A stretch of DNA of 5,508 nucleotides from a bacterium (lineage in GTDB: Bacteria > UBP15 > UBA6099 > DSWB01). Location: positions 1 to 5,508 of the forward strand of contig JAGUYV010000385.1 of assembly GCA_020061125.1 (NCBI GenBank), given 5' to 3'. A program made the translations under genes and the position numbers. The notes under the pieces were generated by a model. It saw nothing but the letters and a program-made list of their open reading frames with translations, searched no databases and was not told the origin of the DNA. This document shows, in pieces, positions 1 through 5,508 of this stretch (position 1 is its first letter; each line of letters opens with the position of its first letter).

Positions 1-352
1 CGGCCACGCGGTCCGCCTGCTCGAAATGGATGTGGCGGCGCACCCGCTCGCGCGGGGTCATGGTATCTCCCGGCAGAACCTTGGGCCGGGTGTCCGCAAT
101 CTCGCGCAGCATGCGCTCCAGGTCGCCGGGCAGGAGCTTGAAATCTTCGAGCAGATCCCCGAGCGTGTCCCGCATGCCCGGCGCCGTGCGCTGTGACGGG
201 TCTTCGCCCGGCTTTTGCGCGTCCCGCAGCAGAGCCGCGGCGTACGCAATCAGCACATGGCGCCGCTCCCCGGAATCACGGCCGAAAAACAATTGCCGGG
301 CCGCTTGGCCCAGCCCGGTAAAATCCCCGCCTGCCTTGACATGTGCATACAT
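1..352 (-). CDS. Uroporphyrinogen decarboxylase (URO-D)-like protein, N-terminal part (partial)
   Basis: Only 117 codons are visible before the window ends. Residues 98-117 (beginning MTPRERVRRHIHFEQADRV) match the typical opening of URO-D-superfamily proteins, 'MTPRERV..AL..e.pDRVP'. That superfamily includes true HemE and the corrinoid/coenzyme M methyltransferases (MtaA, CmuA type). The preceding 97 residues form an unusual extension, mostly helical and charged (GMRDTLGDLLEDFKLLPGD at 59-77). The start at ATG 352 is supported by GGAG seven bases upstream. A second in-frame ATG at 61, exactly where the family normally begins, has its own GGAG five bases upstream, so the short form may be made as well or instead. 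The catalytic region lies outside the window, so decarboxylase and methyltransferase members cannot be told apart. Beside cobalamin-type radical SAM genes, a methyl-corrinoid role is attractive but inferred. It starts 51 bases after the membrane protein gene. Confidence 0.75.
   Translation of the reverse strand, partial: MYAHVKAGGDFTGLGQAARQLFFGRDSGERRHVLIAYAAALLRDAQKPGEDPSQRTAPGMRDTLGDLLEDFKLLPGDLERMLREIADTRPKVLPGDTMTPRERVRRHIHFEQADRVA
67..70 (-). promoter_or_regulatory. Possible internal ribosome-binding site for a short URO-D-like form
   Basis: The minus strand reads GGAGATACC followed by ATG at 61. GGAG lies five bases before an ATG that coincides with the usual N-terminus of URO-D-like proteins. 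It could mark the true start, with the long upstream frame being only an open stretch, or a second internal start. The match is short and may be chance. Confidence 0.35.
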
Positions 353-375: not shown

Positions 376-405
376 GACGGCGCGCCTGTGCGCTGCGCAG
401 CCGTC
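376..405 (-). other. Intergenic hairpin overlapping the stop codon of the polytopic membrane protein gene
   Basis: GACGGC (376-381) pairs with GCCGTC (400-405). After a one-base bulge (399) the stem continues with GCGC (382-385) against GCGC (395-398), giving about ten pairs and a nine-base loop. The right arm includes two bases of the TGA stop at 406-404. No T-tract follows on the minus strand, so it is not a classical rho-independent terminator. It may pause ribosomes or polymerase, protect an RNA end, or be a chance product of high GC. Confidence 0.35.
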
Positions 406-1159
406 AGTTCAGGGTTTTTCTGCCCCGCAGGGTTCTGGCGCTGTTCAGCACCTTGGCCGTGCGCTCCGCGCGTATGGCGCGCAGGCGCGGCACGAACACG
501 AAAAGCACGACGATCATGGTCACCACGGGGGCGACCACGAGTTCCCGCATGATGAGATTATTGGCCAGAATCCCGAACGGCACGGCGAAGGCCAGAAACA
601 CGGCGGTTATCTTGAGCGCCTTGCGCTTGACCTCGCGCCACGGGGAGACCGCGTACACCATGAAAAACGCCATGAAAATCAGATTTGTGGTGGCCCAGCC
701 GCCGATGATTTTCACTGGCATTTTCAGGAGCGCATTCTCATGCCAGAGACCCGGCACGCTGTAGTTCCATTGCCACCAGCCCATGTTGCCGCCGCTGCAC
801 TCGACCATAAAACTTATGCACGCGATGATCATGCTCGACAGGCCCACGGTGGAGATCACTTTCGCCGGGTTGCGTCCGCGCGGGCAAAGAATGCACTCGG
901 CCAGAAACCAGCTCAAGTAGATGGAGATCACCCACCCGAAAGGCACCATCATGGGAGTGCCGAACAGCTCCAGGCCCGATGAGAAATATTCGGGCTGGCG
1001 CGAATGCGCATTGATGAATTCCTTGGTGTAGCAATACAGGAAGGACCAGAAGAAGAATTTGCGGGTCAGCGCCGGCCCGTTCACCCGCAGGGAGTGGACC
1101 ACGATGAAGCCCATGACGAACAGGGCCGGGATGATGAGAATGAGCTTGCTTTTATCCAT
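404..1159 (-). CDS. Polytopic membrane protein, distantly CruF/DUF422-like
   Basis: This 251-residue protein has about six or seven hydrophobic segments: 5-24, 35-48 (weak), 70-91, 100-119, 148-170, 180-200 and 207-224, with a basic tail (RLRAIRAERTAK). Two blocks recall the carotenoid-biosynthesis family that includes the hydratase CruF: GTPMMVPFGWVISIYLSW (67-84), resembling that family's 'GVP-l-vPlaW' helix, and MGWWQWN (126-132) followed by a P-V-K-I-I-GGW helix (148-155), resembling its 'W-x-W ... VP-x-N-f-x-GW' region. This comes from memory of the family, not an alignment, so a hydratase or lipid-modifying role is tentative. Acidic residues within or beside helices (E64, E88, E120) and a C89xxC92 pair are possible functional residues. 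The start ATG 1159 overlaps the previous gene by 8 bases; a longer frame to 1231 would overlap it by 80 bases and lacks hydrophobic support. The cluster context suggests a membrane-embedded partner or later step of the radical SAM pathway. Confidence 0.85.
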   Translation of the reverse strand: MDKSKLILIIPALFVMGFIVVHSLRVNGPALTRKFFFWSFLYCYTKEFINAHSRQPEYFSSGLELFGTPMMVPFGWVISIYLSWFLAECILCPRGRNPAKVISTVGLSSMIIACISFMVECSGGNMGWWQWNYSVPGLWHENALLKMPVKIIGGWATTNLIFMAFFMVYAVSPWREVKRKALKITAVFLAFAVPFGILANNLIMRELVVAPVVTMIVVLFVFVPRLRAIRAERTAKVLNSARTLRGRKTLN

Positions 1160-1412
1160 TGTCCCGGATGCGCGCTTTTTTTCTGTCCGCGGCCAGGGCC
1201 GCGGCCGTGCGCGCGTGCGCCGCGAACACAAATGCGGCGATGGGAATCACCGTGAGCATGAGAACGGGATTGCGCAGAACGAACAGATTGGTGAGCGTGC
1301 AGGTGACGATGATGATCCAGATGCCCGCAAACGCGAGAGGCGCATGCTTGAGCGGCTCGCGCGATGCCGTGGACTCCTGCGCTTCCGGATTGGCGGCCGT
1401 GTCCTGTTTCAT
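1152..1412 (-). CDS. Small two-helix membrane protein, function unknown
   Basis: This is an 86-residue protein that I do not recognise as a known family. A polar N-terminus (1-22, rich in A, E, Q, S) precedes two hydrophobic segments: about 26-45 (LAFAGIWIIIVTCTLTNLFV) and 50-67 (LMLTVIPIAAFVFAAH at 51-66), with a short R-N-P turn between. A basic tail (DRKKARIR) follows, predicting a helical hairpin with both ends on the cytosolic side by the positive-inside rule. The start ATG at 1412 overlaps the stop of the radical SAM gene in ATGA, and the TAA stop overlaps the start of the next membrane protein (ATGGATAA). That tight placement is the main evidence that it is real. It is likely a subunit or anchor of the neighbouring polytopic protein or of the radical SAM enzymes; this is inference. 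No signal peptidase site or metal-binding motif is visible. Confidence 0.8.
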   Translation of the reverse strand: MKQDTAANPEAQESTASREPLKHAPLAFAGIWIIIVTCTLTNLFVLRNPVLMLTVIPIAAFVFAAHARTAAALAADRKKARIRDNG

Positions 1413-2842
1413 GATTTGCCGAACAGCATCTTTCCAAAAATCCCCGCGGCCGTGGCGTAGCGCTTGATTTCGCGGCCGGGCGCGCGGAACAGCCATTTGA
1501 GCCGCTGCGCGATGTACCGGGGCCGGAAGTAGTATGTGAAATAGGCCCGCTTCATGAACCCGGCGAGTTGCCCGGCGGTAAACGCTCCGGCCACGACCGG
1601 GCGCGGGGATTTCACGAGATAATCCTCCCACCGCACGGGCAGCAGCAGCCCCTGATTCTTCAATTTATTGTACAACACGCTCCCGGGAATGGGCTTGAAG
1701 ATGTTGAAAAGGATCAGGTCCGGGGACAGCTCCACGGCGAAGCGGATGGTTTTCTCGATGTCCTCGCGGGTCTCGCCGGGCAGGCCGAGCATCATGCTGA
1801 TCTGGCACTCGACGCCGATCTTTTTGGCCAGGGCCACGGCGCGGCGGCTCTGCTCGAAGGTGATTCCCTTTTTGATGAGTTCGAGGGTTTTTTGGCTGCC
1901 GGTTTCCACGCCGAACTTGACCTGGTAGCACCCCGCGGCCTTGAGCGCGCGCAGAAGCTCCTCGTCAATGGTGTCCACGCGGCTGAAGCAGTTGAAGGTG
2001 AAGCCGCCGGCGTCCGAGAGCAGGGCGCACAGGCGCATGGCCTGTTCGCGATGGAACATGAGGTTGTCGTCGTAAAAGCGGAAATCGCGGGTGCCGAATC
2101 GTTCTCGGCAGTGGAGCATTTCTGCGAAGATGTTGTCCGCGCTGCGCACGCGTTCGCCCTTGAACAGGTGCTTGCTGCAGAAGGTGCAGTTGTGGTGGCA
2201 GCCGCGCGAGGCGAGCAGCGCGGTGGTTGGCCGCTGCATGTAGTTTACGGGGTTCGGCTCGTAACGGTCCTGCTTGAGCTTTTCGCGCGCGGGAAACGGC
2301 AGGGAATCAATGTCCGCGATCTGCGCGCGGCGCGGGTTGCGCACGATGCCGCCGCCGGGCGCGCGCCAGCTCACGCCGTGAATGTGCGACAGGTCGTCAC
2401 CACCGCCGCCGCGCACATGCTCCACAAGCTCGCGCATGGTGATTTCGCCTTCCCCGGCCACAAGCGCGTCGAAAGCGGGAAATTCTTCGAGGGCCTGGCG
2501 CGGAAACGCCGAGGCGTGGTACCCGCCCAGGACCGTGAGCGCCGCGGGATTCCATTCCTTGACCTGCCGCGCCAGTTCGTGCGCGAATTCGATGAACGGA
2601 GAAAACGCGGTGAAGCCCACTATGCGCGGGCCGCGCTCCTCCAGGTATTTGCGGAACGGAAACGGAGACGGCTCCACTTCGAGATCGAGGATGTCCGTGC
2701 GCACGCCCTCGCGCTCAAGGTATGCGGCGAGGTAGCAGATGTTGAGCGGAATTTCCGCGCACGGGATGTAGAACCGTTCCGTTGGAGAGAACGACGGCGG
2801 GGAAACGAGGAGAACGGCCGGAGGCCCCTGGCGCGGCATCAT
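1409..2842 (-). CDS. Cobalamin-binding-domain radical SAM protein (paralogue 2)
   Basis: This 477-residue protein is collinear with its upstream neighbour over nearly the full length. The B12-binding-like domain (about 8-145) shows EIPLNICYLA, VLGGYHASAFP (104-114) and GEGEITMREL (130-139). The barrel carries C215, C219 and C222 in RGCHHNCTFCS, FRFYDDNL (254-261), KFGVETG (309-315) and LGLPGET (352-358); FKPIPGS (382-388) and YYFRPRYIAQRLKW (437-450) follow. The DxHxxG cobalamin ligand is replaced (D53-x-E55-x-x-P58), so any cobalamin would bind without a histidine lower ligand. It should perform SAM/cobalamin radical chemistry in the cytosol or at the membrane surface; the substrate is unknown but may resemble that of paralogue 1. 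The start lies in ATGATG overlapping the upstream TGA; ATG 2842 is reported, though ATG 2839 is 4 bases from the AGGGGGG ribosome-binding site and could be used. The gene ends in an ATGA with the next small gene. Confidence 0.95.
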   Translation of the reverse strand: MMPRQGPPAVLLVSPPSFSPTERFYIPCAEIPLNICYLAAYLEREGVRTDILDLEVEPSPFPFRKYLEERGPRIVGFTAFSPFIEFAHELARQVKEWNPAALTVLGGYHASAFPRQALEEFPAFDALVAGEGEITMRELVEHVRGGGGDDLSHIHGVSWRAPGGGIVRNPRRAQIADIDSLPFPAREKLKQDRYEPNPVNYMQRPTTALLASRGCHHNCTFCSKHLFKGERVRSADNIFAEMLHCRERFGTRDFRFYDDNLMFHREQAMRLCALLSDAGGFTFNCFSRVDTIDEELLRALKAAGCYQVKFGVETGSQKTLELIKKGITFEQSRRAVALAKKIGVECQISMMLGLPGETREDIEKTIRFAVELSPDLILFNIFKPIPGSVLYNKLKNQGLLLPVRWEDYLVKSPRPVVAGAFTAGQLAGFMKRAYFTYYFRPRYIAQRLKWLFRAPGREIKRYATAAGIFGKMLFGKS

Positions 2843-4266
2843 GCCCCCCTGCCCTTCGCGAGATTGAGCCAGATGTATTTGAGGCCCGTGAACAGGCGGA
2901 TGCACTCGCGGCGCGGGTACCGCGCGAACCACTTCATGCGCTGCAGCACATAGCGCGGCCTGAAAAAGAACGACAGATACGCGGTGCGCAGCATTTTTTC
3001 GAGAAGCTCGCGATCGTGATCGCCGCTCACCACGGACTGCGTCTGTTTGATGGAATAGTCGTCCCAGTTTTTGTGAAGCAGGCGGCCCTCGCGGTCGAGT
3101 TTGCCGAACAGCGAACTGCCCGGCAGGGGCTTGAACAAATTGAACCCGGCCAGGTCCGGGGAAAGCTCCTTAACAAACCTGATGGTCTGGCGCATTTCCT
3201 GTTCAGTTTCTCCGGGCAGGCCCAGGATCATGCTGATCTGGCACTCGATGCCCGCGCGTTTGGTCATGGCCACGGCCGCGCGGCTCTGGTCCAAGGTGAT
3301 GCCCTTTTTAATTGTCTGCAATCCTCGCTCGGTTCCGGTTTCCACGCCCAGCTTGAGTTGGTGGCACCCGGCGCGTTTCATGGCGCGCAGCAGATCCGGA
3401 TCCAGGCTGTCTACGCGGCTGAAGCAGTTCCAGTTGATGCGGAGTTTTCTTTTGAGCGTCTCTTCGCAGAAGGCCAGGCAGGTGTCCCGGTAAGCGGTGA
3501 GGTTGTCGTCGTAGAAGCGGAAACCGCGCATGCCGTAATCCGTAACGCACTGCTGCACTTCATCGGCGATGTTGCCCGCGCTGCGCACGCGCGCGCGGCC
3601 GCCGAACACGCTCTGGCTGCAGAACGCGCACCGGTGGTCGCAGCCGCGGCTCGCCAGGATGCCCGTTGTGGGCAGCTCCACATAATTGATGGGGTTGACC
3701 TTGTAACGGTTCTGGTCCAGGAGATGGCGCGCGGGGAACGGGAAAGCGTCAATGTCTTCCTCACGCGGCCGGGATTCGTTTCGCACGACGCCCGCCGCGC
3801 CCCGCCAGCACAGGCCCTGTATGTCGGAGAAATCGTCCGCGCCCTGTTCCACGGCGCACGCCAGCTCGCACAGGGTGCGCTCCCCTTCTCCGAAGATCAG
3901 GAAATCGAAGTCTGGAAATTCCTCGAGGGTTTGCAACGGCAGGGCCGAGGCGTGATAGCCGCCCACCACAGTGCGCGTGCCCGGCGATGCGGCCTTGATG
4001 CGGCGCGCGTAATCGTGCGCGAGATTCACGAACGGGGTGTACGCCGCGAACCCCGCGAGCGCGGGCTTGTGCGCGGCGGCGTATTCTTCCAGAGAAAAAT
4101 CCGCGTCCGCGACATTCATATCCACGATGGCGGCGCGCACGCCGTCCCGCTCCAGAGCCGAGGCCAGATAGCACACATTCAGAGGGATCTCGAAATCCGG
4201 GATGTAAAAGCTCTCCCGGTCGGAGATCACGCGCGTGGCCATGAGAAGAACCTGGGTGCGGGTCAT
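2839..4266 (-). CDS. Cobalamin-binding-domain radical SAM protein (paralogue 1)
   Basis: This is a 475-residue enzyme with the two-domain build of class B (cobalamin-type) radical SAM proteins. Residues 4-140 are a B12-binding Rossmann domain (EIPLNVCYLA at 26-35, VVGGYHASALP at 100-110, FGEGERTLCEL at 125-135). The radical SAM barrel runs from about 200 to 390 with the 4Fe-4S ligands C209, C213 and C216 in RGCDHRCAFCS, then FRFYDDNL (249-256), KLGVETG (305-311) and LGLPGET (348-354). A basic, aromatic C-terminal region (400-475) includes FFRPRYVLQRMKW. The family uses a 5'-deoxyadenosyl radical with cobalamin for methylation of unactivated carbon or phosphorus, or for cyclisation. The canonical DxHxxG histidine is absent (D49-x-N51). 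The start at ATG 4266 is chosen because it forms an ATGA overlap with the methyltransferase stop; an open frame continues upstream to 4314 without better support. A near twin lies directly downstream. Confidence 0.95.
   Translation of the reverse strand: MTRTQVLLMATRVISDRESFYIPDFEIPLNVCYLASALERDGVRAAIVDMNVADADFSLEEYAAAHKPALAGFAAYTPFVNLAHDYARRIKAASPGTRTVVGGYHASALPLQTLEEFPDFDFLIFGEGERTLCELACAVEQGADDFSDIQGLCWRGAAGVVRNESRPREEDIDAFPFPARHLLDQNRYKVNPINYVELPTTGILASRGCDHRCAFCSQSVFGGRARVRSAGNIADEVQQCVTDYGMRGFRFYDDNLTAYRDTCLAFCEETLKRKLRINWNCFSRVDSLDPDLLRAMKRAGCHQLKLGVETGTERGLQTIKKGITLDQSRAAVAMTKRAGIECQISMILGLPGETEQEMRQTIRFVKELSPDLAGFNLFKPLPGSSLFGKLDREGRLLHKNWDDYSIKQTQSVVSGDHDRELLEKMLRTAYLSFFFRPRYVLQRMKWFARYPRRECIRLFTGLKYIWLNLAKGRGA
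2844..2850 (-). promoter_or_regulatory. Ribosome-binding site for radical SAM paralogue 2
   Basis: AGGGGGG on the minus strand, inside the last codons of paralogue 1, precedes the ATGATG start. It is one base from ATG 2842 but four bases from ATG 2839, so it favours the second methionine. A second purine run, AAGGG at 2856-2852, is nine bases from ATG 2842 and could serve the first. Confidence 0.5.
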
Positions 4267-4979
4267 GTGACGATTTTCGCGGCCTCGATGATGTGGAACC
4301 GCGCCGGGTGCCACGACGCGGGGACCTTGAACCAGGGCAGCAGCAGCGTTGGCATGATTTTTTCATTCATGCCCACGCGCTGATCGAATTCGAGTCCAAG
4401 CTCCACGCCGCGGAGCAGTTCCCTGAAGTTGCTGACGGAATAGAAATGCATCATGGGACGGCCTGTGCGGTTCAGCAACAAGGCCGCGGGGGTGTACAGG
4501 GAGCGCAGCAGGATTTCGAGAGCGTCCGGCAGAAACAAATCCACCACGAGCAGCCGCCCGTGGCGGCGCAGCACGCGGCGCGCGTCGCGGAGCATGAGGC
4601 CCACGGCGCGGTCCGTGTCCGCGGGCGTGTCCATGGCCATGTGGTGAATCAGAAACGGGACCACCACGAAATCGAAAGAGGCGTCCTCGAACGGAAGATG
4701 CTGGGCGTCGGCGCACACCGCGCTCACGCGCTCGCGCCGCGGCAGGCGCTGGAGCATGTTCAGAGACAGATCCAGGCACACCACGCGCTCGGCGTGCGTG
4801 TCCGCGAAATTCAGCACCGGCCCGCTGCCCAGGCAAAGCACGCTGCCGCTCACGCGGCGGGTCAGCGCCGGGTTCACATTCCGGTAGATCTGTTTCTGGC
4901 TCTCGACGATGGTCCTGACATATTCGTCGCTCAACGCGTCGAAATAATCCATGGACACCGCCTGATTGCGGCTACTCAT
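4263..4979 (-). CDS. Class I SAM-dependent methyltransferase (Methyltransf_11/UbiE-like)
   Basis: This 238-residue protein has the Rossmann methyltransferase layout. Motif I is VLCLGSGPVLNFAD (47-60), in which the usual GxGxG is reduced to GSG followed by P-V-L. The acidic residue ending strand 2 is D70 (VVCLDLS), the adenine-contacting acid is D91 (CADAQHLPF), motif IV is FDFVVVPFLIHHM (102-114), and the post-motif strand is GRLLVVDLF (141-149). The family methylates small molecules, quinones or lipids at O, N or C; the acceptor here is unknown. The gene starts inside the end of the upstream radical SAM gene (TATGAGTAG) and ends in an ATGA shared with the next gene, so it is embedded in the operon. 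The start is not certain: ATG 4979 has no close Shine-Dalgarno (GGGAGGA lies about 16 bases off), while M10 at 4952 follows AGGCGG. A role in methylating the product of the radical SAM enzymes is inferred from context. Confidence 0.92.
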   Translation of the reverse strand: MSSRNQAVSMDYFDALSDEYVRTIVESQKQIYRNVNPALTRRVSGSVLCLGSGPVLNFADTHAERVVCLDLSLNMLQRLPRRERVSAVCADAQHLPFEDASFDFVVVPFLIHHMAMDTPADTDRAVGLMLRDARRVLRRHGRLLVVDLFLPDALEILLRSLYTPAALLLNRTGRPMMHFYSVSNFRELLRGVELGLEFDQRVGMNEKIMPTLLLPWFKVPASWHPARFHIIEAAKIVT

Positions 4980-5508
4980 ACCAGCGCGATACCGTCCTCC
5001 CGTACCTTATTGTAAAGGGGATGCTCCATTTGTTGATAGCCAGAAACATGAACCCGTTTGTGGCCAGATAGACAAAGTCGAGGACGAACGAGGGCGCGCG
5101 CCGGACCAGGAATTTCCACAGCGGTTTGAGCCGCGGATACCGGACCGCGGCGTAAGCCACTTTCTGGATGCGCACGAGTTCGTCTATGCCCGATTGCCTG
5201 ATAACGCTTTTTTTGAGATAGGTGCCCGTGCTTTTGATGTCCGCCTCGGTGCACAGATTCATCTGCGCGGCGGTGTCCGCGATTTTGAGGCCCGGGCTGG
5301 GAGTGAGCACGGTGAAGCGCGGCAGGTCCGCACGCACGGCCGCGTTCAAATCCACGGTGGCCCAGCCGTCAGCCACAGTTTCGCCGGGGATGCCGAGCAT
5401 GTTGAAAGTGAGCAGCTTGATGCCGCGCGCTCGGGCCGCGCGCAGGGTTTCAGCGAGTTGCCGGTTGTCTCCGCCGCGGCGTTCGAGAACGCCCGCGCGC
5501 AGGTCTTC
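4972..5508 (-). CDS. Radical SAM protein, C-terminal part only (partial, N-terminus beyond window)
   Basis: The frame is open from the window edge and ends at a TAG at 4974-4972, giving 178 visible residues. The first part reads like the second half of a radical SAM barrel of the cobalamin-binding type: a helix (ETLRAARARGIK), then LLTFNMLGIPGET at about residues 32-44, the family's 'G-I-P-G-E-T' loop, then a strand and TPSPGLKIADTA, matching the usual 'P-x-P-G-t-x-l' segment. The tail holds a hydrophobic stretch (VLDFVYLATNGFMFLAI, about 146-162), which suggests membrane contact. The CxxxCxxC cluster and any cobalamin domain would lie upstream and are not seen. It is less similar to the two downstream radical SAM proteins than they are to each other. 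The product would be an oxidoreductase or methyltransferase using SAM and a 4Fe-4S cluster; substrate unknown. It is the first visible gene of the operon and overlaps the next by 8 bases. Confidence 0.85.
   Translation of the reverse strand, partial: EDLRAGVLERRGGDNRQLAETLRAARARGIKLLTFNMLGIPGETVADGWATVDLNAAVRADLPRFTVLTPSPGLKIADTAAQMNLCTEADIKSTGTYLKKSVIRQSGIDELVRIQKVAYAAVRYPRLKPLWKFLVRRAPSFVLDFVYLATNGFMFLAINKWSIPFTIRYGRTVSRWYE

Follow-up and report, generated by a model that had tools for sequence, protein, structure and literature searches.

Overlapping genes for paired B12-binding radical SAM proteins and a distant relative of the carotenoid hydratase family: a candidate cluster for modification of a hydrophobic molecule

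Six consecutive genes in the genome of an uncultivated and probably anaerobic bacterium overlap one another on the same strand and encode proteins of coherent families, which is no chance pattern. Their products include two complete B12-binding radical SAM proteins that are each other's sisters, a methyltransferase, a small protein with two predicted membrane helices, and a polytopic membrane protein distantly related to the carotenoid 1,2-hydratase CruF. We tentatively propose that this operon makes or remodels a hydrophobic molecule, probably of the isoprenoid type, at the cytoplasmic membrane, and we consider it plausible that the cluster is an uncharacterized variant of the B12-radical SAM gene clusters.

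The window, i.e., the entire stretch of DNA analyzed here, is the whole contig G000:C92 (5,508 bp) from a 4.1-Mb genome assembly that consists of 513 contigs and is 79% complete. The sampled kin of this organism are six genomes, all from the same order; the remaining sampled genomes share with it only the domain. All sequence with a coding-type distribution of GC over codon positions (0.77 to 0.84 in the third position) lies on the minus strand, which encodes the following proteins, listed in transcript order:

4972..5508, minus strand: radical SAM protein (PF04055), C-terminal 178 aa, truncated by the contig end (P0006)
4263..4979, minus strand: class I SAM-dependent methyltransferase (PF08241), 238 aa (P0005)
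2839..4266, minus strand: B12-binding radical SAM protein 1 (PF02310 and PF04055), 475 aa (P0004)
1409..2842, minus strand: B12-binding radical SAM protein 2 (PF02310 and PF04055), 477 aa (P0003)
1152..1412, minus strand: small protein with two predicted membrane helices, no family, 86 aa (P0002)
404..1159, minus strand: polytopic membrane protein, distant member of PF04240, 251 aa (P0001)
2..352, minus strand: URO-D/MtaA-like protein, N-terminal 117 aa, truncated by the contig end, recognized by homology to a protein from G005 (P0007)

From P0006 to P0001, the successive overlaps are 8, 4, 4, 4, and 8 nt; P0007 starts 51 nt past the end of P0001 and is possibly cotranscribed with it. Because the contig ends within the cluster on both sides, leaving P0006 and P0007 as partial genes, the pathway cannot be read from the contig itself. 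An earlier, sequence-only reading of this DNA had described three radical SAM genes, a methyltransferase, a two-helix protein, and a polytopic protein stitched together by overlaps. This description holds, except that only two of the three radical SAM proteins are complete by Pfam comparison, the third being a C-terminal fragment. The span assigned to the cluster, 404 to 4266, left out the methyltransferase and the partial radical SAM gene, even though both were counted in the text, and the inventory, correct for the genes that it listed, passed over the same-strand gene P0007. The gene order was said to match no nameable pathway, and this is still so after database searches. In the window, there are no matches to RNA families, tRNAs, or promoter-like sequences that bear on the cluster, and the terminator-like matches fall within coding sequence. 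Two other contigs that also end in partial radical SAM genes, C282 and C492, do not overlap the window, and no contig has ends in common with it.

Both P0004 and P0003 can be assigned to the B12-binding radical SAM superfamily on the basis of above-cut-off matches to PF02310 (75.8 and 79.4 bits, respectively) and PF04055 (89.5 and 95.3 bits) and of the CxxxCxxC motifs (RGCHHNCTFCS and RGCDHRCAFCS) at residues 215 of P0003 and 209 of P0004. They are 51% identical to each other and form a sister pair with 100/98 support in a tree of 45 proteins, where they belong to a 100/100 clade with one gene each from G040, G320, G041, and G186. Three of these four genomes (G041, G186, and G320) come from the same small phylum, represented by seven sampled genomes. 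BchE and every other radical SAM protein of G000 and its order relatives included in the tree fall outside this clade, and the order relatives have no counterpart of P0003/P0004 above 40% identity. In none of the four clade genomes is there a P0001-, P0002-, or P0005-like gene beside the clade member; these members (loci L069 to L072, from G320, G041, G040, and G186) are stand-alone B12-radical SAM genes, and three of them share an NLPG.E-type N terminus. A contig scan with the P0004/P0003 alignment found four weak loci, those read being in unrelated neighborhoods, and an AlphaFold2 model of P0004 with P0003 was poor (pLDDT 45.1). The fragment P0006 covers positions 121 to 164 of the PF04055 profile (E value, 1.7e-4), and among the relatives found, the closest is another protein of the same genome that binds B12 and belongs to the radical SAM superfamily (L061:7981-9489; 6e-18). 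As a group, G000 to G006 are unusually rich in radical SAM proteins, with 64 PF04055 matches in G000 and 25 to 43 P0004-like proteins in each order relative.

The nearest NCBIfam models for P0004 are BchE (TIGR02026; 191.8 bits) and HpnJ (TIGR03471; 187 bits), whereas P0003 scores 197.9 bits with HpnJ and 157.1 bits with BchE. The equivalog cut-offs of these models are 481.35 bits (BchE) and 577.6 bits (HpnJ), and both proteins are below both of them. The pair shares its domain order with HpnJ and matches that model over most of the protein length, but at about a third of the cut-off, and no squalene/hopene machinery was detected in the 79%-complete G000. The architecture of BchE, the anaerobic Mg-protoporphyrin cyclase, is also the same, and its basic, aromatic C-terminal segment is loosely similar; however, BchE occupies a long separate branch of the tree, and the window contains no bacteriochlorophyll genes. 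HpnJ is a nonmethylating B12-radical SAM enzyme that acts on a membrane lipid (PMC13142503). Since models for enzymes acting on a ribosomally synthesized peptide (RiPP; ApyD, 177 to 183 bits), an aminoglycoside (AprD4), and a phosphonate (Sden_1168) score close behind, the NCBIfam score alone names no substrate.

The same comparisons lend support to a different explanation, in which a soluble precursor of an exported or membrane-anchored nonlipid product (a peptide, nucleoside, or glycan) is tailored by the enzymes and then exported or anchored by the two membrane proteins. The closest solved relative of the pair by sequence is the aminoglycoside enzyme AprD4, P0002/P0001-like matches also appear beside putative glycosyltransferase- or ATP-grasp-like genes (L046, L050, and L051), and a pair of membrane proteins would fit an exported product as well as a lipid. 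Nevertheless, P0001 matches no transporter family and is related to an enzyme family, PF04240, rather than to a permease; no precursor peptide, nonribosomal peptide synthetase (NRPS), glycosyltransferase, or sugar gene was recognized in the window. We regard a nonlipid product as possible but somewhat unlikely.

The proposal of a hydrophobic substrate draws in part on P0001. This protein scores 36.3 bits against PF04240 (Caroten_synth), above the curated Pfam gathering cut-off of 25 bits, with residues 25 to 218 aligned to positions 19 to 206 of the 209-position profile, and has conserved Glu and Trp columns in common with a clear PF04240 member. CruF, the studied member of PF04240, is a carotenoid 1,2-hydratase (PMC10784355). 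However, P0001 is closer to an unnamed family of polytopic proteins (E value, 1e-13) than to the clear PF04240 member (2e-5); the best E value in a control with 1,000 shuffled sequences was 0.85. It has no NCBIfam match, and no carotenoid genes accompany it. Its closer relatives, 22 to 28% identical, are outside PF04240 and come from one small foreign phylum. When 386 genomes were searched with P0001, relatives turned up in just three besides G000 (G186, G041, and G051), the one from G051 being a clear PF04240 protein, and a profile search revealed more P0001-like proteins in the phylum of G041 and G186, in six of its seven genomes. By these comparisons, P0001 lies between CruF and the unnamed membrane family, and we do not claim that it is CruF proper. 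It has no match in plasmids or among solved structures, and an AlphaFold2 model of P0001 alone was poor (pLDDT 51.6). Its neighbor P0002 has no Pfam or NCBIfam match and only weak relatives, in loci from G387 and G386. The organism is unlikely to make carotenoids or hopanoids by an ordinary route: phytoene/squalene synthase (PF00494) has no match in G000, of which 21% is missing, whereas the same search was positive in seven control genomes.

The sequence-only reading had also argued for a lipid or isoprenoid substrate, primarily from the basic/aromatic or hydrophobic C-terminal tails of the radical SAM proteins. The quoted tails are there, as is the hydrophobic stretch close to the C terminus of P0006, but they do not serve that argument. 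In a sample of 53 distinct B12-radical SAM proteins taken from many fetched loci, 39 show a [FY]..RP-type motif among their last 75 residues, and the tails of all 53 carry a net positive charge. A comparable basic C-terminal segment, FYARKSFFEYPWIRDKFKRRY, which loosely resembles the tails of the pair, is present in the Thiodictyon BchE, an enzyme that acts on a tetrapyrrole. The tail is thus a property of the superfamily and provides no evidence for a lipid. No lipid gene is recognized on the 5.5-kb contig, and PF00494 is unmatched in the genome. In favor of such a substrate are the PF04240 match of P0001 and the fact that a hopanoid-associated protein, HpnJ, is among the named families nearest to the radical SAM pair, together with the porphyrin-acting BchE; the earlier conclusion is plausible on these other grounds, if unproven.

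P0001-like genes of the foreign phylum (in G041, G186, and G386 to G389) are found in neighborhoods that share some features with the window, namely, the polytopic protein itself, sometimes a small helical partner, and in two of the seven loci read with wide flanks, a B12-radical SAM gene within ~3 kb. In contrast to the window, the radical SAM proteins there belong to other clades, there is no P0005-like methyltransferase, and there are extra PFL, SDR, UbiA, or lyase genes. In G041, a P0001-like gene (L013:11789-12925) is separated by one base from a B12-radical SAM gene (L013:12927-14423), with another B12-radical SAM gene nearby. The surrounding locus (L013:2489-14423 on G041:C109) also encodes a glycyl-radical (PFL-like) protein, an epimerase, an SDR, acetoacetate decarboxylase-like, acyl-CoA dehydrogenase-like, and radical SAM proteins, and two polytopic proteins. 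In G389 (L059:153-7358 on G389:C103), a gene for a two-helix protein overlaps the P0001-like gene, which is followed by genes for a UbiA prenyltransferase, a radical SAM protein, and a B12-radical SAM protein (HpnJ, 235 bits). The UbiA protein scores 115 bits with PF01040, and the models nearest to it are those for a prenyltransferase and for chlorophyll synthase. A pyridoxal phosphate (PLP)-dependent beta-eliminating lyase of the tyrosine phenol-lyase/tryptophanase type is encoded upstream. This locus looks like an uncharacterized pathway for a prenylated product, and its UbiA gene is suggestive of an isoprenoid link, although it is a single case and the P0001-like protein matches P0001 directly with an E value of only 0.026, the connection being mainly through intermediates. 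In G186, the gene for the polytopic protein and that for a small membrane protein overlap, and no radical SAM gene is near. A 4.3-Mb genome holds roughly 70 radical SAM candidates, which would give co-occurrence by chance in ~10% of loci, so that two of seven is not significant (binomial probability, ~0.15).

These data also bear on whether the cluster encodes one pathway at all, as opposed to a strain-specific juxtaposition of radical SAM genes with an unrelated membrane pair. Consistent with a juxtaposition, radical SAM genes are abundant in G000 and its order relatives, the closest radical SAM kin are encoded apart from P0001-like genes, and the gene order is unique to this contig: a comparison of gene order across genomes, which the earlier reading had suggested, turned up no second copy when P0001 and P0004 each served as the query against 386 genomes. 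The uniqueness of the order and the separation of all four closest radical SAM homologs from P0001-like genes likewise count against a lipid substrate. However, five successive overlaps of 4 to 8 nt among six genes are hard to square with a chance juxtaposition, as is the fact that the radical SAM clade and the P0001 family both have their nearest kin in the same small foreign phylum. G041 and G186 even hold both gene types, as each has a clade radical SAM gene and a P0001-like gene. All told, a mere juxtaposition is quite unlikely. It is this shared phylum, along with the above-cut-off PF04240 match of P0001, that leads us to favor a lipid or isoprenoid substrate.

The methyltransferase P0005 matches PF08241 with 57.5 bits, and its best NCBIfam model, demethylmenaquinone methyltransferase (NF001241), scores 43.8 bits against a cut-off of 327. 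Judging from these scores, it can be described as UbiE-like but outside every named family. We also considered a quinone pathway of the UbiA/UbiE type and rejected it: P0005 is far under the quinone cut-offs, and the only UbiA match in G000 is elsewhere in the genome, in an unrelated setting, and reads like a relative of the phosphoribosyl-transferring UbiA proteins.

The available 117 residues of the downstream P0007 are 37% identical to the N terminus of a 494-aa protein from G005. That homolog matches PF01208 (URO-D) with 78.9 bits and MtaA/CmuA with 38.4 bits versus a cut-off of 235.4, aligns only with the C-terminal half of the URO-D family, and fits best with the methyltransferases, not the decarboxylase. 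Proteins of this type (window:2-352 and L085:3478-4962) carry a long extension at the N terminus that matches no Pfam family and were found in only one of the five order relatives searched. As a neighbor, P0007 may be neutral or may hint at tetrapyrrole chemistry or corrinoid methyl transfer encoded nearby. Modification of a tetrapyrrole or corrinoid by BchE-like cyclases, a BchM/UbiE-like methyltransferase, and a URO-D/MtaA-family protein would agree with the rank of BchE as the top model for P0004 and with the weak MtaA/CmuA matches of the P0007 homolog, but it is improbable, given that the BchE and HpnJ scores are all far below cut-off, that the URO-D relative is methyltransferase-like and matches half of the family, and that a PF04240 membrane protein would be unexpected there.

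For a hydrophobic, probably isoprenoid-type substrate, the following scheme can be envisaged. The window would be the middle portion of the operon, with P0004 and P0003 acting successively on one substrate. A deoxyadenosyl radical would attack an unactivated carbon, and the cobalamin would serve either as a methyl donor or as an aid to C-C bond formation or rearrangement, as has been proposed for BchE, HpnJ, and ladderane synthesis. The UbiE-like P0005 might methylate a second site, while the P0002/P0001 pair would keep the substrate within the bilayer and P0001, being CruF-like, might hydrate, isomerize, or cyclize an olefin. The analysis shows which genes are present, how they overlap, to which families they are related, and that the two radical SAM proteins are sisters; the substrate class, the order of the steps, and every reaction in this scheme are what we infer. 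The known chemistry of nonmethylating B12-radical SAM enzymes includes the formation or rearrangement of rings, on substrates that are lipids, hopanoids, porphyrins, peptides, or nucleotides (PMC13142503). The anammox ladderane cluster contains radical SAM genes and SAM methyltransferases whose proposed product is an unusual membrane lipid (PMC2649909). The window similarly combines radical SAM genes with a SAM methyltransferase, but its matches to TIGR04072 (86.4 and 117.8 bits) are far from the cut-off of 360, and there are no FASII fatty acid synthesis genes on the 5.5-kb contig, which is itself cut at both ends. A narrower form of the proposal, in which a CruF-related enzyme and the sister radical SAM pair add a ring, cross-link, or methyl branch to an isoprenoid or other membrane lipid, through an unrecognized anaerobic pathway in a bacterium that makes neither carotenoids nor hopanoids, is in our estimate rather unlikely to be right in full.

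Only a small number of B12-radical SAM enzymes go beyond simple methylation. These are poorly understood, and the substrates of several are membrane lipids or other hydrophobic compounds. This analysis delimits a small radical SAM clade and an unnamed family of membrane proteins, both of which can be searched for in better assemblies. If the proposal is correct, a duplicated BchE/HpnJ-like enzyme encoded together with a protein of the carotenoid hydratase family would be a concrete lead to a new lipid structure or to a new function of the latter family unrelated to carotenoids.
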